This document shows positions 14,241-50,277 of a stretch of 64,000 bases of DNA, piece after piece. The stretch is from contig NC_003071.7 of assembly GCF_000001735.4 (NCBI RefSeq), positions 6,193,151 to 6,257,150 on the forward strand, given 5' to 3'. A program made the translations under genes and the position numbers. The notes beneath the pieces were generated by a model, which was given only the letters and a program-made list of their open reading frames with translations, was not told the origin of the DNA and searched no databases. How positions within the stretch are numbered: the first letter of the stretch is position 1; every line of letters starts with the position of its first letter. This DNA is from Arabidopsis thaliana (lineage: Eukaryota; Streptophyta; Magnoliopsida; Brassicales; Brassicaceae).

Positions 14241-15358
14241 TAAAAATAATCTACAAATTCTATAATCAATATGTAAACGATATTATACTTTACAGATCTT
14301 TTTGCAACTTCACCTTTATTATGATAGACCTTGCAAACAAATAAAGGCAACAAAAAATAGACACTAAAAAATCTCAACAACAAATCTAAACAATATATAT
14401 TTAGCTTTAAATTATAAAAAATCATATAAATATCTTCGGGATTCAAATTTTAATAATTATTTGAACAGGTTTTCTAAAATATATCAAAACCAAATATATT
14501 GAATATAAAAAATACAAATAGGAAATATATTAATTTAAAAGATACAAAATATTTAACAAGAAATTGTGTTATTTTTTGTTCAAAGAATTTGATATAAAAT
14601 CTTCAAAACGATCCGATATTGATTCTTATTAGATTAAAATTGTTATTAGATTGAAATTGTAAATTGACTCGAAGTATATTAAATAAAAACAATTTGATTT
14701 TTAGTTATCACGGGACAGATTTATATAGCGGGATGGGTTTAGAGGAGACGAGTTTACATGGTAGGACGGGTTTGGATGAGACGAGTTTATATGGTGCTAT
14801 GAGTTTAGATGGAACAAATTTGGATACCACGGATGTACTCCTAGAATTAACTATCAAATTACAACTATACAATACTAAACAAAACAAACAATAATAACAT
14901 AACAAATACAATTTCAATTTTAAATTTTTAGTTACAAAAAATACATAAAATCAACATTATAGTATAAGTGTTAATCTTCTTTGACACCTCTAAATGTTAT
15001 TCTTCTTTGATACATTTAAATATGTAATTTTAATACAAAGTTACTAAATTACATATGTTCCACGGGTTAAATTTGAAAATACCAAAAGTTTAAACTATAT
15101 AATTTTTTTTTAAAACAAATTATGAATAAAAAATAAAATATTATCCCGTGGTATGGTCTATCACAAGTCAAATCTTAGAAGATAAAATAACACATATTAG
15201 ACTTACTAATATCATAATTATGACTCAATAAAAAGCATACACAACCTTATCGATAATTATTAATCATCACAAACAACAACAACCAACAAATTCTATTTTA
15301 TGATAAAGAAAAATAAATAAAATATTTAACCTGCAGTATACCGCGGATCATATCCTAA
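14241..15358 (+). mobile_element. Helitron-related sequence with a degenerate 3' end, plus orientation
   Basis: The end at about 15329-15358 reads CCTGCAGTATACCGCGG followed by ATCATATCCTAA, a decayed version of the hairpin-plus-CTAG terminus. Inside, 14707-14830 contains about four degenerate copies of a ~27-bp unit like GGACGGGTTTGGATGAGACG. The short open frame there reflects the repeat. The left boundary is nominal; this element and the previous one face outward in opposite directions. Confidence 0.45.
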
Positions 15359-15360
15359 TA

Positions 15361-17900
15361 GATTGTTAAAAGTGGGGGCTTACCGGCGTACTTTCTTTAC
15401 TCATTTTACACTTACAATCTCCATTCTGTGTTATAAAACTTTCTACCTTCACTACTAAAATATGTATAACTATTAATATTGCCTCTGGACATATTCAAAA
15501 CCCCATTAGGAAACCACATAATTAAATCTATCGTATTATTTGTGTTTTTGTGACAAGAGATACATTCGATTATAAGAAGAAAAAAAGAGAGTTTAAAATG
15601 TAATGAAATAGTGTTTCATGCATGTATGTATTTCCTACCGTCTTGTATATGTTTATGCCGTCACGTTTGTAAGAAAACTAGTAACATGGAAAAATATCAG
15701 ACATATTTATCTACAAGATAGCAACATGAAGAGTGGGAAAAAAAGATAGCAACATGAAGCCTTCTTTAATAATTTACGGTAAATCCATGAAGGAAGAAAA
15801 CAAAGATATCTTAACTTGTTAACTAAAAAAGTCTTTGGGACCAACCAATATTTCCATGGTTATCGTTACTTGCTTCTTGGAGGTGTTATGGAATATCAAA
15901 GCTGCTTCTTATTGATATTGGTTAAATTAGACAAATATGACATATTTATTAGTTTTAAAAACTAATTAGAAGTTATTATACTAAAATAATTAGATGCTAT
16001 TTTTTGGAAATGTTTACAAAATTAAGACTACACAGGCAATTATTAAAAAAATATAGTCATGAAGAATATATATAGTCTTTTAATTATTCTTGCATGTATC
16101 TCTCCCACTTGCTTTACATATGACGTCATGTTTAATACGTAGGCAGAACCAGTAACATCGGATACTATCAGACACACATTCATACCTATGGCCAGAGATG
16201 ACCATTATCCATGATGCAATATAATAAAACAAAGTCATCTTGACTTGTTAACTAGAACAATTCTTAAGACTTATAATTCCATCATTATCTTTACTGGATT
16301 CATGCAATGATTATGGAATAATCAAAACTGCTTATTGAACGAGGTTGGTTAAATTAAATTACGCAAATATGACATATCATTATAAAAGTCTAAGAGCTCC
16401 TTCGTTTCTAAATTTGGAAAACCATATACAACATCTATATTCAACATCCGAAGATCCGAAGCAAGTTACATCCGAAGATCTTTGTTTGAAACTTTAAACT
16501 CGTTCTTTTTTTTCATTTCTTTTTCGTAACTCCGGAGATCCGATCCGGTTCAACGGACACCATGACCTCCGAAGCAAGTTACAGGGACTTTTCTCCCTAG
16601 TTGGTTATCGAATAACGACCCATAAAATATGACTAATCCTGGGATCATGGGGAGTCATGTAAAAGCTTTTGACACTCACACATTTGTGAAGTAGTTTTTA
16701 GGGTGGATCAAACATGGGTAGCTCATTATAATCTCCCTTAGTCTGATCACTACCACTAGACCACTCCCGTGTGGGCAAAAAAACTCGTTCTTGCATATAA
16801 ATGTAAATTTTGGTTATAGTTGAGTATGCAGAAAAATACAAGTACTATATATATATATCAAAATGGCTTAACAAATTATTATTTTTAGTCATGTAAATTA
16901 TCATTAAGGAATGAATGAATTTGTAAGTTAGAAAAAATTGCTTTACCAGCCAAGAGGATAAATTAAACCTTGCCAAAAAAGAATAAAGAACAAGGATATG
17001 TTTTGCATGTTAGAGATTAGGAATTAGCAAGCCAAAGCTGAATTAGAGAAATCCCAACTATGATCTCGTTAATATGGAATTATACAACGCCTGATCTTTG
17101 AATATGGTTGCCTTAGACTCTCTCAAATCTTATCTCTACTGCATATTCGATTGGACGAATTGAACTATGATTGACGAAGAAAAGAAAAAATGGAACTATG
17201 ATTATTTGCCAATTTTGTCCATACATCAATATTCAAAGTATTCCCTGCAATTGCTTCTTATTGGTGTTGTGATTTTGTCATTGTTGAAGTACTTTTGATG
17301 TTAGTTTTATACGTAATTAAATTTAAGTGAAGTGAAAAACAAGAAATAAAACTTTTTGTTTTTGATTCAATTGTTCCTTTTGTTAGTTTTTATATTTCTA
17401 AAATCTTATATTTCAAACTTTGGAATATTTTTTAGTTTTTTTTGTTTGTCAAATATCCTATAATTTATTTTATTTAATTTTTTTTAACCTAATGTAGTTA
17501 TACAAAATAAATTAGACGGTACGCTTTTGTAAATGTTACAGAATTAAGATGACATTTAATCAATTATTTTTAAAAAATTAACGAGTGATGAAGAATATAT
17601 AGTATTTTTACGTTTCATGCACATATCTCTCCCACTTGCTTTATATATGACGCCACGTCTATGACGTAGGCCAAAACAGTAACATCGGATACTACCAGAC
17701 GCACATTCATTTATCCAAAAACAACGATTATCGACCATCATTAAAGTGATCCCAAACAGCCAAAACCGCAAAAGATCGAGATTTTCCATTCTCTCAATCC
17801 GGCTCAATAGCCCATGCCGCGAAATTGATCCCTAACGCTCAAAATTCTTTCCAACAACACTTAGTCAAATATTCATTCCTTTGCATATAAAAAAAATAAA
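15361..17900 (+). repeat. TGACG-box repeat, copy A
   Basis: A ~2.5-kb block repeated in the same orientation as copy B (18171-20815), about 2.8 kb away, and as copy C (34160 onward, interrupted). Within it a sub-block occurs twice: CTCCCACTTGCTTTACATA then TGACGTCA at 16121, and CTCCCACTTGCTTTATATA then two TGACG motifs (17648 and 17662), each followed by a conserved GTAACATCGGATACTA. It encodes no protein. 16690-16790 contains a stretch with ACCACTAGACCACTCCCGTG that resembles old retroelement sequence. Confidence 0.85.
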
Positions 17901-18170
17901 ATTCCTTTACTAATAAGTAAGGCAAGTCAAGGTTTCAAACCAAATAAATGGTACAGGAAGAAGATTTAATAACAAATGGTGTGATTTGTTATACATTTGC
18001 AGAATAAGATAATAGGGAGTAGACTTTAGCGTTGAGCCTTAAATATTTGAATATGACATAGAATTCTAAACATATTAGTGACTTGCAAACAACTTTTTGA
18101 AAACCCAAATAGTATTTCATTTGAAAATTTCTACACCTAGCACTCAAAACTTTAATTAAATATTAAATAG
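17901..18170. other. Spacer between repeat copies A and B
   Basis: Unique AT-rich DNA, ending with a fragment of the foldback element family (CACTCAAAACTTTAATTAAA at about 18139). No gene seen. Confidence 0.5.
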
Positions 18171-20815
18171 GTTCTTAAAAGTGGGGGCTTACTTTCTTTA
18201 CTCATTTTACACTCTCCATTATGTGTTACTCATTTTACACTCTCCATTATGTGTTATACAGGCGATTTTAGGAAGGAAAAAGAGAGAGTTTAAAATGTAA
18301 TGAAAATAGTGTTTCATGCGTGTATGTATTTTCTACCGTCTTGTTTATGTTTGATTTGTGAACATATATATGCCGTCACGTTTGTAAGAAAACTTGTAAC
18401 ATGAAAAAATATCAGACATATTTATCTACAAGATAGCAACATGAAGAGTGGAACAAAAAAAATGATAGCAACAGCCTTCTTTAATAATCTACGGTAAATC
18501 CATGAAGGAAGAAAACAAAGATATCTTGACTTGTTAACTAAAAAAGTCTTTGGGACCAACCAATAATTTCATGTTTATCTTTCTTGCTACTTGGAGGTGT
18601 TATGGAATAATCAAAGCTGCTTCCTTATTGATATAGGTTAAATTAGGCAAATATGACATATTTATTAGTTTTAAAAAATTACTTAGATGTAATTATACTA
18701 AAATAATTAGATGCTATTTTTTGGAAATTTTTACAAAATCAAGATTACACAGTCAATTATTAAAAAATATATAGTCATGAAGAATGTTATATAGTCTTTT
18801 AATGATTTTGCATGTATCTCTCCCACTTGCTTTACATATGACGTCATGTTTAAAACGTAGGCCGAACCAGTAACATCGGATACTATCAGACACACATTCA
18901 TATCTATGGCCAGAGATGACCTGACCATTATCCATGATGCAATATAATAAAACAAAGCTATCTTGACTTGTTTACTAAAACAATTCTTAAGACTTATATA
19001 TAATTCCATGGTTATCTTTACTGGCTTCATGCAAGGATTATGGAATAATCAAAACAGCTGCTTATTGAATGAGGTTGGTTAAATTAAATTACGAAAATAT
19101 GACACATCATTATAAAAGTCTAAGAGCTCATTTGTTTCAAATTTGGAAAACCATATACATCATCTATATTCAACATCCTATATATTGTTTAAAACTTTAA
19201 ACTCGTTCTTTTTTTTCAATTTTTTATTTTTTATAATTCGGATGATTTGGTTCAACAGATTTTATGATCTCTGAACCAGAGCACGAAGATTTCTTTTTCT
19301 AGCTGGTTCTTGGGTCAATGGACCATGAGAACTGACTAATCCCAGGACGAGGGGAAGCCATGTGAAAACCTCTAACACTCACACATTTGTGGAGTAGTTT
19401 TTAGGGTAGATCAAACTTTGGATAGCTCATTACAACTTTTTTTAGTCTGATCACTACCACTAGACCAAGCTTGTGTGGGCAAAAAGACTTCGTTCTCAAG
19501 GGCGGACCTAGTAAAGAAGAAGGGGGTCACTTGACCCAAGTTGAATAGTCAAATTTTATTTTTTGCATAGAATTTTGTTTAGAATTAGCAGAACAATTGG
19601 TAAATTCCAAGGTGTTGACACCCCCAAAACATGAGTTCAAATCTCTATAATGACACTTTTACTCTTTTCTCCTCAATTTAGTTTTAAATAAATGTTTTTT
19701 TTGTCTTATATATTTCTTTACTTTTTCCAAAATAACAGCAATTAATATACTATTTTTATTTCCTTATGAAATTGATTTTATTTTTGTGAGTTTGTATAAA
19801 TATTATAAGAAAGTTAGTTATAAAATACTGTTTATAAATTTTTTTTGACCCCGGTAAAATTTATTTATGGGTCCGCTACTGCTCGTTCTTGCCTATAAAT
19901 GTAAATTTTGTTTCTATTTGAGTATGCAGAAAAATACAAGTACTATATATATAAAACACTCGTTTTTTAAGTCATGTAAATTATCATTAATGAATGAAGG
20001 AATTTGTAAGTTACCAAAAAATTGCTTAACCAGCGAAGGGGATAAACCTTGCCAAAAAAGAATAAAGAACAAGGATATATTTTGCATGTCAGAGATTAGG
20101 TATTACCGTATTAGCAAGCCAAAGCTGCATTAGGGAAATCCCAATAAGGTTTTTACGTTCATGATTTCTTGCACGACTATGATCTCGTCAATATGGAATT
20201 ATACAACGTCTGCTATTTGAATATGGCTGCCTTAGGCTCTCTCAAATCTTATCTATACTGCATATTCGATTGGACGAAATGGAACTATGATTATTTGCCA
20301 ATTTTGTCCATACATCAATATTTTCAAAGTATTCCCTGGAATTGTTTCTTATTGGTGTTAAGATTTTGTCATTGTTGAAGTACTTTTGATGTTATTTTTA
20401 TACGTAATTAATTTAAATGAAGTGAAAAACAAGAAATGAAACTTTTTTGTTTTTATTCAATTGTTTCTTTTGTTAGTTTTTCTATTTCTAAAATCTTATT
20501 TTTCATACTTTGGAATATTTTTTAGTTTTTTTGTTCATCAAATATCCTATAATTTATTTAAACTTTTTAACCTAATGTAATAATACAAAATAAATTAGAC
20601 GGTATGCTGTTGTAAATGTTACAGAATTCAGATCAAATTTAATCAACTATTTTTAAAAAATTAACAAGTAAGTCATGAAGAACATATAGTCTTTTTATGT
20701 TTAATGCATGTATCTACTATCTCTCCCACCTGCTTTATATATGACGCCACGTCTATGACGTAGGTCAAAACAGTAACATTAGATACTATACTATCAGACA
20801 CACATTCATATGGCC
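18171..20815 (+). repeat. TGACG-box repeat, copy B (directly upstream of LURP1)
   Basis: Direct duplicate of copy A with small differences throughout and one inserted hAT-type element (19497-19881). It keeps both box sub-blocks: TGACGTCA at 18839-18846, and TGACG at 20742 and 20756 beside TAACATTAGATACTA. The end of copy B forms the proximal upstream region of LURP1. Confidence 0.88.
19497..19881. mobile_element. hAT-type non-autonomous element (385 bp) with target duplication
   Basis: The left end is CAAGGGCGGACCTAG; the right end, reversed, is CAGTAGCGGACCCAT, matching the CA-x-GCGGACC ends of plant hAT elements. It is flanked by TTCGTTCT and CTCGTTCT (7 of 8 identical). Repeat copy A lacks the insert and reads ACTCGTTCTTGC at the same place (about 16783), so the empty site is available within the window. 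Confidence 0.8.
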
Positions 20816-20915
20816 AGAGATGACCAACCACTGGAGATGCTCTAAGAAATTTATCCTCGTAGGCTTTTCTCTTTTAAAAGTCAACATATTGGAGCCAGAT
20901 GTTTATTTTATAAAT
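20742..20915 (+). promoter_or_regulatory. LURP1 upstream elements: paired TGACG, W box, TATA
   Basis: Two TGACG motifs (20742-20746, 20756-20760) lie about 250 bp before the ATG and about 150 bp before a TATA box, TTTATAAAT (20907-20915). AGTCAA at 20879 is TTGACT (W box core plus T) on the other strand. These fit binding by TGA bZIP and WRKY factors, which is expected for a pathogen-induced gene. Function is inferred from the motifs. A relic MITE end (TGGAGATGCTCTAA, about 20833) lies between them. Confidence 0.55.
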
Positions 20916-23900: not shown

Positions 23901-25185
23901 ACATTGGCCCTATTAATAACAAGGAAGATTTGCAAAAGTACCATTTTTCTAATCACCTTTTGCAACATTACCCTTTCTTCATGACCATTTTTTAAACTGC
24001 TCCTTCTAGTGCGGAAAATGACAATCTTGTCCTTAATGAAAGATTAGGATTTCACTTCATTTCTCTTCTGTTCGACAAACTGTTCCTCTTCGCTGAACTT
24101 TATCTCCGACGACGAATTGTATTTCAGATCTATCGCCAGATCCGATGACGACGACGAACAATCGCCAGATCCGACAAAGATCTGACAAAAAAAGTTTCAT
24201 GCAATTTGGAGATCGCCAAATCCGACGAAGATCCGACGAAGAAATCACCAGATCCGGCAAAGGAATCTACGGTAATATGATTCTCGATTTCATAGTGGAT
24301 CTGATAATAGTTTAGATCTAAATTTCAGTTCTAATTTGATTTATTTTGTACATGTTTCGCAGATGGATTCAGAGAGTGAAATCCTCACCTTACCTGAACA
24401 GATCTATAAAGAAGGTGACGAATCGATTTCAATGGGTTAGGCGAGAGTCTGTTTGAGAAGATTATAAGTTATTTTCTTGGTCCTTTAGTTGATTTGGGAC
24501 CAAGAATTAAGGCAAAAAGGGGGACCAAGAATGAAAGCAATTAAAAAATTATTTTTTGGTGGTATTTCTGTCAATTGCCCTTAATTTTATATCTTAACGA
24601 TGGTTAGATCACAAAAAAATAAAACTATACAGATTAAAAATATAAAAAAATAAGATTTTTCTTTGACAATGCTTCACACCATTCTAGTTAAACTAACACA
24701 AATATACTACTTCAATTTCACAACAATTAATTACAATAGTATATTGGATATCAAAGCCTCAAAAAACAATGAATCATACTACTAATCTTGTCAAGTTTGG
24801 AGGAAACACTAAGTAGTAGAATAATTTCTCTCAGTTTTATTAATCAGTCCAATATGCTTATTTATATAAAAAATATAATTTGTCTAACAAGTTTTTTTAC
24901 ATTTATGATACGAGTAAATTTACCTTTATAACAATAAGAAAATATATACAATTGTTAACTTTCCTAATACCAATAAAAAATATATTTCACATCGATGTCA
25001 CGAAATTTCTGTTAGATGTGGTAGCTTTGCTGATCCTCCAAATTAATATGCAAGGTCTAGCTCATATTTTCGAATATGTGCTGTTTACGTTCAAAATAAT
25101 ATCATGGAGGGAATGAGGTTGGTAATTAGAATAATATTTTAAAATTCATGTTATTAAATATCTCTAAATCACATGACATTGGGCA
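23901..25185. other. Possible non-autonomous transposon with captured GC-richer DNA
   Basis: 23940-23975 (GCAAAAGTACCATTTTTCTA) looks like a MULE-type end. It is followed by a GC-richer stretch with repeated GATCCGACGA/CGCCAGATCCG phrases (24110-24270) and GACCAAGAA repeats (24478-24530). No recognisable protein is encoded and no matching second end was found. The remainder to 25185 is AT-rich and featureless. Confidence 0.3.
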
Positions 25186-25505
25186 TGTTGGTTTAAGCTT
25201 GAAAATAACTTGAGTTATAAGTTATTAATTAAAAGACAGATAATGTGTGAATCTTTACGAATTATCTAAAGGTTATATGTTTAGGAGTTATCTAAACATA
25301 TTCCTAATGTGATTAGTATTAGTCTTATGAATCTCTATATAAAGAGTTGCCATAGTGTGGTATACCTTTAAGAGTTTTGAGAGAGATAAATTAGGGAGCT
25401 TTAGTTTTGAGTTATTTTCTAAAGTTAATAAGAGAAAATCTTTTATATTTTTTTTATCTTATATTCAAACTCTAGAGGCCCTATAAGATTATTTTCAATT
25501 TTCTT
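25186..25505 (+). mobile_element. Second copy of the copia LTR (solo-like)
   Basis: Starts TGTTGGTTTAAGCTTG, parallels 1497-1810 closely, and is not preceded by polypurine tract or polymerase sequence. Similarity to the first locus continues downstream to about 26220, so it belongs to a duplicated block and may not be an independent insertion. Confidence 0.6.
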
Positions 25506-26905
25506 TTTTAGTTCAAGGATTTAATCCATATACATGGTAGTTATGTATATGCAAAACCTGAATTAGACTATTTAGTCTTTTTTAATGTGATTTGTTGTGG
25601 ATCAATTTGAAGATGCTTTGAAAATGTTAGCTTAAATGTTTAATGATAACTTGTGATGGATTTGGAACTGATTCAAAAAGAGCTTATGACCATTGATTCA
25701 GGTATTCTAACTCTTCTAATGAACTTATGCTATAAGTTTATTTATTTTAATTCATTCTATCAGTTATCATTTGTTTTCAGAATTCTAATTACACAAGTAC
25801 AAATGTTCAGTTTGCCATGATCAACTTTTTTCCCATAGAGCTTCAAAACCCACCTTCTTCATAGATTTACATGGGGGAACAAAGATTCATTCAGATGTTG
25901 AGAAGCTATTTCAATGATTATTACATAGCTTCAAATATGGAGCTTGTAATAATTTCACATGATGCTAATGTTATTTAATTTCATATTTATTTTGGCATTC
26001 ACTTTTACTCAAGTTTACATATCATAACTTTTTCTCACGACTTAATTTTTTTCCAGACAATATAGATGTCATTGAGAAACTCATCAATTAGTTCATGCAC
26101 ATTATTCACATCAACATCATGTCATCATCTCCATTTCATCCGTATATATCCGTTGTCGTTCATCATCTTTGTGGCTAAAATCATTTTTGCAGTTGATAGA
26201 TGACCACTTAAAACTTTGGGGGAAAAAGGTGAATTTGAACGAACCCATCTGCTGCAGTCTCCTTTTCTTAACTTACAAGTACTGCAGCAGTTGGATGTTT
26301 GTTTGCAATAACTATCTTGACTTTCGATAGAATTCCGGTTTACTAGGATGCTTCTCTTAGAAGAAAATGCTTCCAGAAAAGAAACAAGAGGGTGGTTCTC
26401 TTGGGTCAGGAGGAGATAGATGTGAGTTTTGTTTACCTTTCTATACTCTGTCATTGTTAACTTTGTTTTGTCTTGCTGCAAAATTTCTTTGGAGTTGTTG
26501 CTAGGGTCTCTTATTACTTTTGATGTGTGAATTTAAATTCTATGCTTGTAGGAGAATTCTACTAGAAAGCATATAGGTAAGCCGCGCGGAGAAAATAGAA
26601 TAGAATATGCAGATTGTCTCTTGTTTGGGGCTTCACTGTGTAGTTTTGTTGCATTATTTATTTGTGTAGAAATTGAGCCACTTGATATCTTACCAAATAT
26701 ATTGTAGAAAAGACTTGAATTCTTTGTATATTACATTTTAAATGCAGTCTTCGTTTACATTAGTCTTGCAGCTGGCAACATCTTCATCAAAACGGAATTT
26801 GTCAAAGCTTCACAAGAGGAAGCATCAAATCACTACAGTTACGGATGGTGATTTACTGATATTGTACATGAAGTGTCTCTAGGTAGAGAGTATATTGACT
26901 GATAC
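25506..26905. other. Duplicated block plus unrecognised flank left of the MULE
   Basis: 25506-26220 matches 1811-2560, and 26155-26340 matches 1-180. 26341-26905 has no copy elsewhere in the window. It has slightly coding-like composition (for example SSSKRNLSKLHKRKHQ in one plus frame near 26785) but no identifiable domain or intact frame. Confidence 0.45.
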
Positions 26906-32552: not shown

Positions 32553-33038
32553 TCAGTAAGGCTTCTGGTTCGCATAGTTCCCCGGAGGATCATAATTGCA
32601 ACTGATGATGGTTCCACCATTGTTACATCTCACTTTAGCACATCCGAGTCTCACAGAATTTCTCCAAACGACCTGAGTGTAGTGACCGCAAACTCCGTTG
32701 CACGTGTTTGTATCGTAGTTGTAGTTAGCCTTCTCGTTAACCCACAAGTTCACGGCAGCAACACCAGACAAGTCACCGCCACTCTTTGCCAAGTTCTCCC
32801 CGTAAGGCCCACGGGAATGTACGAGTCTGCAGTCTCCTTTTAGTTGGTTTGCGTAGTTCCGAGCGTAGGCTGCAAGTCCTTCGTCCCACTGCATGGGGCC
32901 TACGCCTATCTGCGATCGTGCCTGGTTGTGAGCATTTACATAGTCTTGCTGGCTGTCTTGAGCCTTCAAGGGAACAACAAGAGCACCCACAAGTGCTGCC
33001 AAGATTATTAGAATTCGAGAGTAGCTTGTGACTTTCAT
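32553..33038 (-). CDS. PRB1: Basic PR-1-like protein PRB1 (CAP superfamily), 161 aa
   Basis: Single-exon gene. Residues 1-26 form a secretion signal ending PLKA|QDS, so the mature protein is extracellular. The CAP domain follows, with HNQAR at 37-41, GENLA at 80-84, CGHYTQVVW at 117-125 and six cysteines for three disulfides (70, 113, 117, 133, 138, 147). It ends CNYD then [11 protein letters not shown], the position of the CAPE-type peptide. CAP proteins of the PR-1 group bind sterols and inhibit oomycetes. From memory this is PRB1 (At2g14580), which responds mainly to ethylene/jasmonate in roots, unlike PR1. It is a local duplicate of PR1 at 48794-49279, same strand and length, about 16 kb away. 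A TATA box lies about 75 bp upstream. Confidence 0.97.
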
Positions 33039-33108
33039 TTTTCTTAGTTGAAATAATGGCTATTTCCAAGCTTTGTTTGTGTTATGATTTTGGGGTTTGT
33101 AAACATTG

Positions 33109-33117
33109 TTTATATAG
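33109..33117 (-). promoter_or_regulatory. TATA box of PRB1
   Basis: On the minus strand the sequence reads CTATATAAAC about 75 bp upstream of the PRB1 ATG. The same element and surroundings (ATCTCTATATAA) are conserved upstream of PR1. Confidence 0.7.
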
Positions 33118-34159
33118 AGATTTGAAAACTATCTTTCGTTTTGTTTGCCATAATAAATAAACAAAGTCTTGCTGAACATTTAAACCTCTTTTATGGGTTT
33201 AATCTTTCACCTTTGGATAGGAGATAGGAGATAAAATAAACCCAACATTTAATACGGTAGCTAGTCGGGAACCCCCTAACCCATAGGTCTAAATTTCTTC
33301 TCACATCTTCATATGAAAACAATTTTTAAAAAGAAACATAAGAAAGTACCAAAAATATATAACAGCCTAAACAAAATAACAAACAAATTTAAACCAAGAT
33401 TATCGAAATTTTTGGTTCAATTCGGCAAGGGATATCTAACTACAACCAAACCAAATTTTTATAATTTTGAATTTAGTTAAGCGAAGATTTTGTTCAGTCT
33501 AACTCTGGATACCCTTCTTTCAAATTGAATAACTGAAGTTCATAAATTTTGTGAACATGACTTATAAGCCCCAATGCCTAACCATAATTATCTCTTCAAT
33601 CTTGTAAATAGTCTGAACTAAAATTGCCAAAATATTTATTACAACCTAAATTTTAGATATGGGCATATATCGTATTATAAAGTGATTATCTATGTGGTGT
33701 TGGAGATTAATATTATAATGAAAACAGTTAAAACAAATCATAAGCACCCTAAAAATTCTTACTTGTGGTTTTTATCTCTGATTTAACAAAATCGATCATA
33801 TCTTCAACATTCTTTAATGTTGTAGTTTATTTTTTGTTTTCCTGCAAAAGTAAGAATTTTTCAAATCTATTAAAAAATAAAATTTTCAAAATGCTATTTT
33901 TACGAAAATCTGACGAATTTGCCATTTTTAACATTTAAAAATATATGTATTTATGATTTTATTTTGGAAAAATACGTACTTATATCAAATACTAAACTCT
34001 AAAAACAAATGAAAGAGAATAAACTCAAACATAATGAGTAAAATGTACGTTAAATTACATTTTTATATTATGAAAAAAGGCAAAATCAAACTATTTAAAA
34101 GAAGAAAAAATCCACAAATGTCAATAAAAAAAATGGCGAATCCATAATTAATTCGATTT
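33118..34159. other. PRB1 upstream DNA, AT-rich
   Basis: No coding features. Low-complexity AT-rich sequence with no clear repeat membership until copy C of the TGACG repeat begins near 34160. Confidence 0.5.
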
Positions 34160-35150
34160 TTAAAGCATTTTTGAGAAAAGTGGAAGCTTATTTTCTTTAT
34201 TCATTTTCCAGTCTCCATTGTATTACAAAACTTTTTGCCTCACTGCTAAAATATGAATTAATATTGTCCGTGGACATATTTAATACCCCATTAGAAAATC
34301 AAATAATTATGAGAAAAGATACATGCAATTATTTAAAAGAAAATATTTACAAGTGAAATGTTATGAAAATAGTGTTTCATGCATGTATTTCTTTCCTACG
34401 GTCTTGCTTATGTTTGTAACATGGAGCCATGAGGGAATAAAACAAGAAGTCTTTCTTTATGATTTATAAAAAAAAAGGAAGGAAAAAATAAGGAAAAAAG
34501 ATAGTCAGCTACACCAAGTATGACGAAATACATGATCACACATACCAAGTTTAAAAATGTACAACTAATTACACAAATTAGATGTATTGTATGCCCACAT
34601 ATACCAACTATATGACGACATGTGGTCAACATCACGAAATCCGGTGTTGACCATCGTTGATCGGCATTGACCACATGTCGTGATGTTGATGTTGACCACA
34701 TATCGTCATATAGTTGATATATGTGGGTATGCAATAAATTTAGTTCGTGTAGTTGGTTGTACATTTCTAAACTTAGCATGTGTGACCCATGTATTCCCTT
34801 CTACTTGGTGTAGCTGAGTATTTTTTTTCCAAAAAATAAAGCATAATCCATGAGGGAATAAAACAAAGCCATCTTCACTTGTTAAATAAGTCATTGATAC
34901 AATAATTCCACGGTAATAGTTACTTGCTTCTTGCAGGGGATGGAATAATCAAAGCTGCTTCTTGAATGAGGTTTGTTAAGTTAGGCAAATATGACATATC
35001 ATTTTGAAAGAAAACACAAATTGAATGGTGGCTAAGCTAATAGATAAGAAGTCTAATAGCTTTTTATTCATACTGGATGCTGTCAATTTGTCATTATTAA
35101 ACTATTTTCATATAATTTATACGTAATTAAATAAATGTAAAACAATAAAA
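34160..35150 (+). repeat. TGACG-box repeat, copy C, first segment
   Basis: Parallels 15370-16400 of copy A in reduced form (GTTTCATGCATGTATTTCTT, CTTGCTTCTTGCAGGGGATG, AAATATGACATATCATT) and then jumps to the region equivalent to about 17300 of copy A. It is interrupted by a hairpin MITE (34506-34816) and cut at about 35150 by the VANDAL-like element. The repeat resumes at about 40966 and again at 43568. Confidence 0.75.
34506..34816. mobile_element. Hairpin MITE (311 bp)
   Basis: Nearly the whole element is one inverted repeat: the left end CAGCTACACCAAGTA and the right end TACTTGGTGTAGCTG are exact complements, and the arms match over most of ~150 bp, meeting near 34665 (ATGTGGTCAACATCACGA facing its complement). 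It is flanked by AGT on both sides, a probable 3-bp target duplication of Harbinger or CACTA type. It encodes no protein. Confidence 0.85.
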
Positions 35151-40965: not shown

Positions 40966-41151
40966 ACCCTTATTAGTTTTCATATATCTAATTAAAATCT
41001 TCTATATCGAATTATCTCTTTTATTTTTTTTGTCCTTTTGGGTCATAAATATCTTTTTTTTGGTCATCAAATATCTTATATATAGGTTCACTTTTAAAAA
41101 ATCCTAACATAATTATACAAACTAAATTAGAAATATGGTACGTTTTGTGAA
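40966..41151 (+). repeat. TGACG-box repeat, copy C, second segment
   Basis: Matches about 17380-17535 of copy A (TTAGTTTTCATATATCTAA..., ATTATACAAACTAAATTAGA, GGTACGTTTTGTGAA). It lies between the VANDAL-like element and the minisatellite Helitron, both of which inserted into it. Confidence 0.7.
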
Positions 41152-43567
41152 TCTATTAATAATAACAATCCGAATAAATGACATTTGCACTTCCGAACAG
41201 TTGTGTCTATTAAAATATTGACGGTTACTTTTTTAACATTTGTGTCTTTTCATCATAAACAGTTGTGTCTGTTAAATTGTTGACTGGTACTTTTGTACAT
41301 TCGTGTCTTTTCATCGTAAACAGTTGTGTCTGTTAAATTGTTGACGGTTACATTTTTATATTCGTGTCTTTTCATCGTAAACAGTTGTGTCTGTTAAAAT
41401 ATTAACGGTTACTTTTTTATATTTGTGTCTTTTCATTGACGGTTATTTTCTATATTCGTGTCTTTTCATCATAAACAATTGTGTCTGTTAAAATATTGAC
41501 GGTTACTTTTTTGCATTCGTGTCTTTTTAGCGTAACTTTTGGTTAACATTGACGGTTATTTTTCTGTTAGTTTCTTTTTATCGCAACTTCTCATAAAACT
41601 GTATTTTAATCGTAAACAGTTATGTCCTTTAAAATATTGACGGTTACCTTTTAACATTCGTGTCTTTCATCGTAAATAGTTGTGTCTGTTAAAATATTAA
41701 CGGTTATTCTTTTATATTCGTGTCTTTTTATCGTAACTATTGGTTAACATTGACAGTTACTTTTTCTGTTAGTATTTTTTTATCAAAACTTCTCGTAAAA
41801 CTGTATTTTTTATCGTAAGCAGTTGTGTCTGTTAAAATATTGATGGGTTACTTTTTGACATTCATGTCTTTTTATTGTAACTTTTTGATATATGATTTTT
41901 TCCATTAGTGTCTTTTTATTGCAATTTTCTGTAAAAATATTTAAAGTTATTGTTTTGTTGTTGTGTCTCTTTATTGCAATTTTCCGTTATAATATTGACA
42001 GTTATTTTTTTCGTTTGTGTCTGTTCATTGTATATTTCCTTATGAATAGTTTTCTACTTAAATATTTGTAACTGTTGAACTCTATATATTCGTCCTTCTT
42101 CTTAGGTAATTATAAAATTTTTGTTTTTTTATCACATATTATTTATTTCATGATGAATCCAAAAAAATATCTTTTGCATTTCTGGTTGTGTTTTTTTTAT
42201 CGCAACATCAGGTTAAAATGTTGACGGTTATATTTGTTGTTCATGTCTTTTCATCGTAACTTTCCGCTAACATTGACGGTTATTTTTTCCGTTACTACAT
42301 TTTTATCGCAACTTTTTGTTTATATCTTTGTCATTTTAATATTGACGGTTATTTTTTTGTGTTTTTTTATTGCAACATTTCGTTAAAATATTTACAATTA
42401 CTTTTTTAGTTAGTATATTTTCATCGTAACTTTCTATTTACATTGACGGTTATGTTTTTCTTTAGTTTCTTCTTATCGCAACTTTTTATTTGTGTCTTTT
42501 TATCGTCATTTTCTGTTATTATCGACGGTTATTTTTCCGTTTGTTTTTTTTATCGTCACTTGGTAAAAATATTGACTGTTATTTTTTCTTGGTTGTGTCT
42601 CTTTATTGCAACTTTCTGTTATAATAATGACGATTATTTTTCGGTTGTGTCTCTTTTATCGCAACTTTCCGTTAAAATATTGACGGTTATTTTTTATTCG
42701 TATCTTTTCATCGTAGCTTTCCATTAATATTGACGATTATTTTTTTCGTTAGTGTCTTTTTTATCGCAACTTTTTTTGTTAGTGATTTTTCATCATAACT
42801 TTTTATTAATATTGACTGTTATTTTTCCTTTAGTATTTTTTTATCGCAAATTTTCATAAAAATATTGAAAGTTATTTTTTCTTGGTTGTGTCTGTTTATT
42901 GCAACATTCCGTTAAAATATTTACGGTTATTTTTTCGATTATTTCATTTTATCACAACTTTCTGTTAAAATATTGACAGTTATTATTTTCGTTCATATTT
43001 TTTCATCGTAACTTTCCGTTAACATTAACTGTTATTTTGTCGTTTTTGTTTCTTATTGCAATTTTTGTAAAATTATGGACGGTTATTTTTCCTTGGTTAT
43101 GTCTTTTTGTTGCAACTTTTCGTTATAATATTGACAATTATTTGTTGGGTTGAGTCTTTTCATCGCGTTTTTCCATTAAAATATTGACACTTACCTTTTT
43201 CGTTCATATATTTTTATACTTACTTTTGGTTACTTATTGACAGTTATATTTTATGTTTGTATATTTTCTTCGCTTATTTCCGTTAAAACATAGATGATTA
43301 TTTTATTCGTATTTTTTTATCGTAATTTTTCGTTAATATTAATGGGGTTTTTTTTTTGACTATATCTTTTTTTTATTGGAATTATTTGTAAAAATATTGA
43401 CTGTTATCTTCCCGTCTATATATATATATATATATATATCTAATTATCTATATATATTTTTTTAAATAATTACTAAAATTTATAATATACTATTTGTTTT
43501 AAAAAAATTATTATATAAACATATTTAAAATATTCTCCCCGCGATATCGCAGGGAATCTGAGTCTAG
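41152..43567 (+). mobile_element. Non-autonomous Helitron made almost entirely of a minisatellite
   Basis: The left end is TCTATTAATAATAACAATCC after A. The right end has the hairpin CCCCGCGATATCGCAGGG (43541-43557 area), then AATCTGAGTCTAG and T. Removing 41152-43567 restores GTTTTGTGAATGTTTACA, which aligns with CTTTTGTAAATGTTACA in copy A (about 17525), so the insertion site A|T is confirmed by an empty site. The interior is a degenerate tandem array with the core TTGACGGTTA and TCGTGTCTTTTTATCGTAAC. No Rep/helicase is encoded. Confidence 0.9.
41195..43420. repeat. Degenerate minisatellite with TTGACGGTTA core
   Basis: About 2.2 kb of head-to-tail units of roughly 55-60 bp or multiples, alternating GTTAAAATATTGACGGTTA with TCTTTTTATCGTAACTTTC. 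At least a dozen exact GACGGTTA copies and a similar number of one-base variants are visible. The first units (41195-41530) are the most regular, carrying AAACAGTTGTGTCTGTTAAA. A (TA)n run ends the array at about 43418-43438. Confidence 0.9.
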
Positions 43568-43873
43568 TGTTTACAAAAATCCTAACTGAACTATTTTTTT
43601 AAAAAAATTAAGAAGTGAAAAGTCATGAAGAATAAATAGTCTTTTAATGTTTCATGCATGTATCTATCCCACTTGCTGTATATATGACGCCACGTCTATG
43701 ACGTAGGCCAAAACAGTAACATCAGATACTATCAGACACACATTCATATGGCCAGAGATGACCGACCATTATCGACCTTCCTTAAACTGATCTCAAACCG
43801 CAAAAGACTACTTATCTCAAAACTGTTTCCAATAACACTTCGTCAAATATTCCTTTATTAACAACGAAGGCAA
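43568..43873 (+). repeat. TGACG-box repeat, copy C, third segment
   Basis: Closely matches 17535-17930 and 20640-20815: CATGCATGTATCTATCCCAC, TGACG at 43685 and 43699, then AAAACAGTAACATCAGATAC and CATATGGCCAGAGATGACC. It ends at a hAT-like MITE. Confidence 0.85.
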
Positions 43874-48793: not shown

Positions 48794-49279
48794 TTAGTAT
48801 GGCTTCTCGTTCACATAATTCCCACGAGGATCATAGTTGCAACTGATTATGGTTCCACCATTGTTACACCTCACTTTGGCACATCCGAGTCTCACTGACT
48901 TTCTCCAAACAACTTGAGTGTAGTGACCACAAACTCCATTGCACGTGTTCGCAGCGTAGTTGTAGTTAGCCTTCTCGCTAACCCACATGTTCACGGCGGA
49001 GACGCCAGACAAGTCACCGCTACCCCAGGCTAAGTTTTCCCCGTAAGGCCCACCAGAGTGTATGAGTCTGCAGTTGCCTCTTAGTTGTTCTGCGTAGCTC
49101 CGAGCATAGGCTGCAACCCTCTCGTCCCACTGCATGGGACCTACGCCTACCGCTCCTCGTGCCTGGTTGTGAACCCTTAGATAATCTTGTGGGCTATCTT
49201 GAGCTTTCGAGGGAAGAACAAGAGCACCTACAAGAGCTACAAAGACGATTAAAAATCGAGAATAGCCAGTAAAATTCAT
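48794..49279 (-). CDS. PR1: Pathogenesis-related protein 1 (PR1, CAP superfamily), 161 aa
   Basis: Single-exon gene. Signal peptide 1-26 (cut before QDSPQDY), then a CAP domain with HNQAR at 37-41, GENLAW from 80, CGHYTQVVW at 117-125 and six cysteines at 70, 113, 117, 133, 138 and 147. The C-terminus is CNYD followed by PRGNYVNEKPY, the site of CAPE-type peptide release. The protein is secreted and is the standard marker of salicylic-acid signalling; PR-1 proteins bind sterols. The sequence matches Arabidopsis PR1 (At2g14610) as I remember it. Upstream lie a TATA box (about 60 bp from the ATG) and paired TGACG motifs about 680-700 bp away, the known NPR1/TGA-responsive region. Duplicate of PRB1 at 32553-33038. 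Confidence 0.98.
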   Translation of the reverse strand: MNFTGYSRFLIVFVALVGALVLPSKAQDSPQDYLRVHNQARGAVGVGPMQWDERVAAYARSYAEQLRGNCRLIHSGGPYGENLAWGSGDLSGVSAVNMWVSEKANYNYAANTCNGVCGHYTQVVWRKSVRLGCAKVRCNNGGTIISCNYDPRGNYVNEKPY

Positions 49280-49336
49280 TTTTCTAAGTTGATAATGGTT
49301 ATTGTTGTGTTATGATTTTGGGGTTCGTAAACATCG

Positions 49337-49345
49337 CTTATATAG
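49337..49345 (-). promoter_or_regulatory. TATA box of PR1
   Basis: Minus strand reads CTCTATATAAGC about 60 bp upstream of the ATG, conserved with PRB1. Confidence 0.8.
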
Positions 49346-49659
49346 AGATTTGAAAACTATTTTTTTCTTTTTTTTTTTGTTAACTATAGATCTCACGTTT
49401 TTGTAAATACATGGTCCATGTGTGAGTATTTTAGTAATATTCATTGCAATTGTCCAAATGAATAGAAGTTGTTTTCGTAACTATTTTTTTGTCAATCTTG
49501 TCCTTACACACATTTTTCCTAATATTGTTTCGTATCGGTAGCTTTGCCATTGTTGATATATTTTTTTAGTATATATGTAAGTATACCCTAAATGAAGTTT
49601 ATTAAGAAACATTGTATATAGTTGTTTCATGTCATTCAGTTGTTTTGTGTTTTTTTTTT

Positions 49660-50000
49660 CTTCATGATTCTAATTTAAGTCTTCTATTTCAAATTTGAAT
49701 TTCATATATTACTTCATTCAAAATGTTTTGAAGATATCTTCCTGTAAATAATACAGAAAAATCGTATCGGACAGTTTGGCAATTAAGATTATATTTACAG
49801 TCAGAAAAAATAAAAGTTTATATCTACAGTCAATTTTCAAATAAAAGAAAAAAAGTCAAGAATTATTTGTTTCTTAGTGTTTCATGCATATGAGTATCTC
49901 TATCACTCTTGCCTATGGCTGAAAAGTCCTGAAGAATATATGCCGCCACATCTATGACGTAAGTAAAATAGTGACGTAGAGAAACAGTCAATAGATCACC
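49660..50000 (+). repeat. Diverged copy D of the TGACG-box repeat, overlapping the PR1 promoter
   Basis: The order GTTTCATGCAT, AGTATCTCT, CACTCTTGCC, ATATATGCCGCCACATCTAT and GACGTAAG parallels CATGCATGTATCTATCCCAC, TTGCTGTATATA, TGACGCCACGTCTATGACGT in copy C. The earlier part (TTCTATTTCAAATTTGAATT, GTATCGGACAGTTTGGCAAT) parallels about 17400-17545 of copy A. One of the three ancestral TGACG boxes is TGCCG here, and a new TGACG lies 13 bp downstream of the retained one. Confidence 0.6.
49851..49990 (-). promoter_or_regulatory. PR1 distal promoter: as-1-like TGACG pair and W box
   Basis: TGACG motifs at 49955-49959 and 49972-49976 (CGTCA on the PR1 strand) lie 680-700 bp upstream of the ATG, at the position of the linker-scanning elements (LS5/LS7) known to mediate TGA/NPR1 control of PR1. 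AGTCAA at about 49853 and 49985 are W-box cores (TTGACT) on the gene strand. The motifs are seen directly; their function is established in the literature for PR1. Confidence 0.8.
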
Positions 50001-50021
50001 CATTGAGATTTATCCAAAAAG

Positions 50022-50049
50022 AAAAAAAAAAAAAAAAAAAAAAAAAAAG
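50022..50049. repeat. Poly(A) run
   Basis: An uninterrupted A tract of about 27 bases upstream of PR1. No adjacent retroposon body was recognised. Confidence 0.85.
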
Positions 50050-50277
50050 ATCACCGATTGACATTGTATACACTTTGTTTTTTTTTTCCAAACACTAATA
50101 CGCAGTTTAAATTGAAAAACTCTAGGTGACCGATCTACTTTTGTGTTCTTCTATCTTCAGTATACCTAATTTTGTACCGCCTTCGTATATCATTTACCAA
50201 TTTTGACTACTGATATGCACTGGCTTTAAAATTTTCCAATCCTGATATGAATCTGTGATTCTAAGCAATAACATATA

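Follow-up and report, generated by a model that had tools for sequence, protein, structure and literature searches.

Genes and module copies in the cluster

The window analyzed here is the whole 64,000-nucleotide stretch, corresponding to C2:6193151-6257150 of the 119.66-Mb genome of Arabidopsis thaliana. It contains a gene cluster whose members we take to be LURP1, PRB1 and PR1. Pfam domains support these names: CAP domains lie on the minus strand at 48794-49279 (PR1) and 32553-33038 (PRB1), and a LOR domain is found in ORFs from 20820 (LURP1). The identity of PR1 is further backed by the promoter motifs LS4, LS5, LS7 and LS10, which occur in order at 49981, 49972, 49955 and 49921, as given in PMC6053526. 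Salicylate immunity is routinely monitored through PR1, the standard marker gene. The individual elements of its promoter have been dissected one after another, and the origins of these elements have been little discussed in the literature that we searched.

An earlier note on this DNA had described a TGACG-containing block of the LURP1 type in five places and a diverged version, copy D, in the PR1 promoter. All six proved to be real, but three further copies, at 15.6k, 18.3k and 34.4k, had been overlooked. Altogether, the window holds nine copies of the module, all on the plus strand and spanning ~34 kb (Table 1). Some of them are orphans, as had been proposed. The two distances given previously also hold: in copy E the boxes precede the ATG of LURP1 by 258 and 244 bp (proposed, ~250 bp), and in copy D they precede that of PR1 by 676 and 693 bp (proposed, 680-700 bp).

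Table 1. Positions in the window of module copies and associated features
Feature	Position	Strand	Remarks
Copy A, orphan	16040-16209	+	Palindrome TGACGTCA at 16121; second box absent
Copy B, orphan	17564-17729	+	Paired with E by tandem duplication; TGACG at 17648, 17662
Copy C, orphan	18760-18933	+	Paired with A by tandem duplication; TGACGTCA at 18839; second box absent
Copy E, LURP1 promoter	20647-20835	+	TGACG at 20742, 20756 (spacing 14 bp), followed at 20763 by W-box-like GGTCAA
Copy F, orphan	43594-43774	+	TGACG at 43685, 43699; same core as B across 43 aligned columns
Copy D, diverged, PR1 promoter	about 49830-49980	+	PR1 is a minus-strand gene
Type-2 diverged copy (15.6k)	15585-15722	+	CGTCA at 15659; gap at box 2
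Type-2 diverged copy (18.3k)	18290-18432	+	Duplicate partner of 15585-15722; CGTCA at 18374
Copy upstream of PRB1-like CAP gene (34.4k)	34335-34426	+	~1.3 kb upstream of the gene; TGACG core absent
Tandem segmental duplication, segment I	15357-17710	+	Partner 18166-20809
Tandem segmental duplication, segment II	18166-20809	+	Stops just before LURP1 proximal promoter; 19497-19881 unpartnered
LURP1 proximal promoter common to two unlinked LOR genes	20843-20900	+	Right border of module
Helitron-like multicopy insertion	41152-43567	+	Splits F from its left flank, 40970-41151
LS10 WRKY50 site (PMC6053526)	49921-49928	+	GAAAAGTC, reverse complement GACTTTTC; in spacer missing from type-1 copies
LS7-position TGACG of D	49955-49959	+	CGTCA on gene strand; aligns to second TGACG of B, E, F
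LS5-position TGACG of D	49972-49976	+	Aligns to TAACA(T) of other copies reaching there
LURP1 ATG	21,000
PR1 ATG	49,279	-

Copies A, B, C, E and F constitute type 1, and the 15.6k and 18.3k copies type 2. A profile HMM built from the five type-1 copies detects the 15.6k copy with an E-value of 2.6e-7 (3.5e-4 with TGACG masked) and the 18.3k copy with 3.6e-4 (1.2 masked). With this profile the 34.4k copy is at chance level (E 0.07, masked 0.057), an unrelated minus-strand match at 38.1k scoring 0.074. It is instead tied to type 2, both by 89% identity over 61 bp with the 18.3k copy and by a common type-2 pattern. In a tree of the nine copies, drawn with a midpoint root for display only, type 2 and the PRB1 copy are separated from D and type 1 with 98/97 support.

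The copies differ in their TGACG content. The core of B, E and F consists of TGACG-CCACGTCTA-TGACG, with a distance of 14 bp between the boxes. The earlier note had ascribed this order to all five type-1 blocks, which is correct for these three but not for A and C, each of which has a single palindrome TGACGTCA. Two nearby TGACG motifs are thus present in four of the nine copies (B, E, F and D). Those without a pair are, besides A and C, the type-2 copies, with one CGTCA each near the position of the first box, and the PRB1 copy, which has none.

Homology of the PR1 promoter segment

We assessed the homology of copy D with the LURP1-type block by Smith-Waterman comparison of 49820-50000 with the five type-1 copies. 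Controls were 1000 dinucleotide shuffles and 3686 background windows taken from both strands with module regions excluded. Not one shuffle or background window reached the summed score of D, with or without masking of TGACG/CGTCA. Against copy B alone, the masked score was reached by 4/1000 shuffles and 71/3686 windows. In searches with the type-1 profile, D was the top non-training match in the window (E 6.4e-9), and remained significant when TGACG was masked (8.1e-5). D also aligns over 93-160 bp with both type-2 copies and the PRB1 copy; the scores of 44-46 were equaled by none of the 1000 shuffles or 3686 windows.

The signal is distributed unevenly along D. Its right half (49,926-50,000) outscores all controls when unmasked (0/1000 shuffles, 0/4466 windows), but with TGACG masked it is weak on its own, being matched by 2/1000 shuffles and 56/4466 windows. 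The left half (49,820-49,925) is free of TGACG and was reached by 0/1000 shuffles and 0/4456 windows. Due to this half, D passes the check posed in the earlier note, namely whether it aligns to the other copies any better than shuffled sequence outside the TGACG boxes. The sequence comparison gives good support to the supposition of the earlier note that this PR1 segment, with LS7, and the LURP1 block descend from one ancestor. That D resembles the block by convergence, through AT-richness and selection for TGACG boxes, is extremely improbable and refuted at the level tested: the weak masked right half would fit it, but the TGACG-free left half still exceeds every control, the profile match survives masking, and the TGACG pair of D differs from that of the block.

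This last point bears on the proposal that D coincides with the paired TGACG motifs of the PR1 promoter. The coincidence is real for LS7, which corresponds to box 2 of the block, but not for LS5, which aligns to TAACAT, nor for box 1 of the block, which reads TGCCG in D. Since its counterpart in other copies is TAACA, the LS5 box looks specific to D. Thus, of the paired boxes of PR1, only LS7 is, as judged from the alignment, inherited in common with the block. As for the WRKY50-binding elements, the 18.3k copy has a spacer at the place of LS10 but lacks the motif, while the LS10 8-mer recurs in F at 43617, at a different place within the block. LS4 falls outside the well-aligned stretch of D. 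The alignment thereby separates an inherited part of the PR1 promoter (LS7) from parts seen in PR1 alone (LS5, LS4 and LS10).

The PRB1 copy shows a clean 26-bp gap at the TGACG core when aligned with the 15.6k copy; against the 18.3k copy the gaps are placed differently. We infer that the gap reflects a loss in the PRB1 copy. PRB1 is not known to be salicylate-induced. Judging by the title of Santamaria et al. 2001, the AtPRB1 promoter reportedly responds to ethylene and methyl jasmonate. The missing core fits this regulation but proves nothing, because the copy sits 1.3 kb upstream. Between the block of the PRB1 copy and its downstream tail there is an imperfect palindrome of ~340 bp (34492-34830, 80% self-complementary), flanked by an identical 19-base stretch (34427-34445 and 34848-34866) that resembles filler DNA or a duplicated piece next to the site of the absent core. 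The proximal promoters of PR1 and PRB1 are themselves alike (49305-49376 vs 33077-33146, 89%). We also considered whether the PR1 and PRB1 module copies might be sisters resulting from gene duplication; this was not favored, as the tree groups the PRB1 copy with type 2 and D with type 1.

Local duplication of the module

The earlier note had called the module a dispersed repeat. A genome BLAST search, for which the LURP1 block plus its right flank served as query, produced seven matches. Five of these were in the cluster; the other two were restricted to the LURP1 proximal promoter (20843 onward) and fell in the upstream regions of LOR genes on C1 and C5. A degenerate 25-base core pattern had four matches in 119.66 Mb and the type-2 pattern had three in the genome, every one of them in the cluster and on the plus strand, with no matches for either reversed control; such genome counts are lower bounds. 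Neither BLAST nor the pattern searches found module copies at unlinked loci. However, D used as a BLAST query found only D, so diverged copies elsewhere may have escaped BLAST. With this proviso, the term "dispersed" does not fit: all genome matches are within one cluster, 9/9 copies share a strand, and the flanks are collinear.

The clearest trace of the process is a tandem duplication of ~2.5 kb (segments I and II in Table 1), which became visible by comparing pieces of the window, as the whole-window self-BLAST did not list it. The copy pairs A/C and B/E follow from this duplication. Aligned K between the duplicated segments is 0.12 and 0.08 in two parts, which at a substitution rate of 7e-9 per site per year would date the event, very roughly, to 6-9 million years ago. 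Collinearity beyond the module is not confined to the tandem pair (15357-17710 vs 18166-20809): it is also observed between the left flank of F, 40970-41151, and 17380-17534 and, in pieces, on the PRB1 side (34176-35137). For D, only the ~150-bp block aligns; a weak A-rich match of 50007-50051 to the PRB1 side (E 0.005) was not relied on. The ~2.5 kb duplication and the collinear flanks point to spread of the module by local segmental or tandem duplication, and not as a dispersed element. The window also contains another repeat pair, 25185-26000 / 1496-2315 (85% identical, with the query ending at 26000), which is unrelated to the module.

Copy F is separated from its left flank by a 2.4-kb insertion; once this is skipped, the flank is collinear with A, B, C and E. 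The insertion lies between A and T, starts with TC and ends with CTAG, the comparison being with the familiar Helitron end motifs. It has at least 66 matches listed in the genome, its own included, with 40 of 137 candidates scored. The same insertion is rich in TGACGGTTA-type tandem repeats and holds 15 of the 82 TGACG/CGTCA motifs of the window.

Could the module be a transposable element, such as a MITE or a Helitron fragment, that dispersed on its own? A short unit repeated nine times might suggest so, as might the Helitron-like element and the palindromic insertion in or beside the F and PRB1 copies. On the other hand, module matches are confined to ~34 kb and one strand, homology extends into the flanks, and the Helitron-like insertion interrupts F and is not its carrier, the rejoined flanks being collinear with those of A, B, C and E. 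We consider the transposable-element origin very improbable.

Regulatory implications

In the LURP1 promoter, the E-F homology extends to 20830 and the stretch common to LOR genes begins at 20843, so the module adjoins a promoter that is found elsewhere without it. The counterparts of this stretch are at C1:12285429-12285486 and C5:289827-289881, and neither LOR gene has a block detectable by BLAST or by the type-1 profile run over the 3-kb loci (best E 3.7). The proximal promoters of LURP1 and the C5 LOR gene have a W-box-like AGTCAACAT (AGTCAAC) in common.

B and F have the same 43-bp core, from which that of E departs at a single base. This difference creates, at 20763-20768 next to TGACG, the motif GGTCAA, which read from the opposite strand is the W-box TTGACC; it is absent in B and F. 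We asked whether conservation of the B/E/F core could be taken as a sign of selection, but the tests were borderline or negative, and we do not rely on them: scans at window sizes of 30, 40, 43 and 50 columns yielded p-values of 0.50, 0.10, 0.057 and 0.26, and for the longest conserved run p was 0.12 with gap columns left out and fell to 0.002 only when they were counted. Preservation of the core is no proof of its use in any case, because the cores of orphans B and F are intact as well, and the nearest listed ORFs of at least 100 aa lie more than 3 kb from them (introns ignored).

The published work on PR1 provides a context for the commonly inherited box. According to PMC6053526, LS7 is the main TGA2 site, LS5 is negative, and LS4 and LS10 bind WRKY50; Despres et al. 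(2000), as cited there, placed TGA2 on both LS5 and LS7. The box inherited in common is thus the better-supported binding site in that study. The same text describes mixed effects of LS mutants on SA/INA-induced PR1 expression and cites Pape et al. 2010 for LS5+LS7 double-mutant promoters whose activity exceeded that of the wild type and which INA could still induce; hence, even PR1 does not depend on the commonly inherited box as its only switch. NPR1 targeting proceeds mainly via TGA factors (PMC11039990), and pPR1::LUC was called low in SA responsiveness (PMC7272087).

One table of PMC7272087 rates the LURP1 and PR1 promoter reporters alike, as ">1.5-fold, stable", in its SA rows, and PMC3858237 terms LURP1 an SA marker gene. 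LURP1 is also among the genes raised by N-hydroxy-pipecolic acid in both Col-0 and sid2-2, in a table of PMC11663584 seen without its column heads, so LURP1 induction may not need SID2-route salicylate. Our search, which largely covered papers outside subscription, found no paper on the TGACG boxes of the LURP1 promoter or on TGA/NPR1 binding there. Control of LURP1 by TGA/NPR1 via the module is plausible, and so is the related control of LURP1 and PR1 put forward in the earlier note.

Taken together, these observations make the following course of events probable. An ancestral non-coding module of ~150 bp would have carried TGACG boxes for TGA-type bZIP factors and multiplied inside the LURP1-PRB1-PR1 cluster through several local duplications, segmental and tandem. 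Single copies would have landed directly upstream of the LURP1 proximal promoter, within the PR1 promoter and upstream of PRB1, leaving the others as orphans. The common box (LS7 in PR1, box 2 in LURP1) may recruit TGA factors and, through them, NPR1, and may thereby help salicylate induction of both genes. Subsequent divergence would account for LS5, LS4 and LS10 of PR1, which the LURP1 copy lacks, for the W-box beside box 2 in LURP1, and for the PRB1 copy without the core.

A narrower reading accepts this ancestry but gives the module a regulatory role at PR1 alone. The copy at LURP1, like the orphans, would then be a passive by-product of duplication, and LURP1 would be run by its own proximal promoter. 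Such a view agrees with the conservation of that proximal promoter in two LOR paralogs without the block (including AGTCAAC in the C5 gene), with core-conservation tests that are not significant without gap columns, and with cores that are intact in orphans B and F too. Against it, both promoters were rated SA-responsive in a single reporter study (PMC7272087), and the LURP1 copy, ~250 bp upstream of the ATG, retains both boxes. We regard restriction of function to PR1 as rather unlikely.

If the common box does act at both genes, several consequences may be tentatively suggested. The co-induction of LURP1 and PR1 by salicylate might derive in part from one inherited TGA box, with WRKY sites added independently (the W-box in LURP1; LS4 and LS10 in PR1). 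The missing core might help to explain the non-response of PRB1, a paralog of PR1, and the orphans with intact cores might dock TGA/NPR1 for the cluster. In any event, the LURP1, orphan and PRB1 copies represent natural variants of one module that can be compared side by side.

Promoter evolution by tandem or segmental duplication is of a general kind in plant gene clusters. The present case resembles it in that the copies are collinear, local and on the same strand and include one ~2.5 kb tandem pair; it differs in that the duplicated DNA is non-coding and now lies upstream of two unrelated families, LOR and CAP. The insertion at 41152-43567 resembles Helitron-like rolling-circle elements in its A/T insertion site, TC start, CTAG end and multicopy nature, but it disrupts a module copy and is distinct from the module. 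Finally, the as-1-like element of the PR1 promoter (LS5/LS7; Lebel et al. 1998, via PMC6053526) is contained in D, and its LS7 corresponds to box 2 of B, E and F. The pairs themselves are nevertheless built differently: that of PR1 consists of LS7 and the PR1-specific LS5, 17 bp apart, whereas that of the block consists of box 1 and box 2 at 14 bp.
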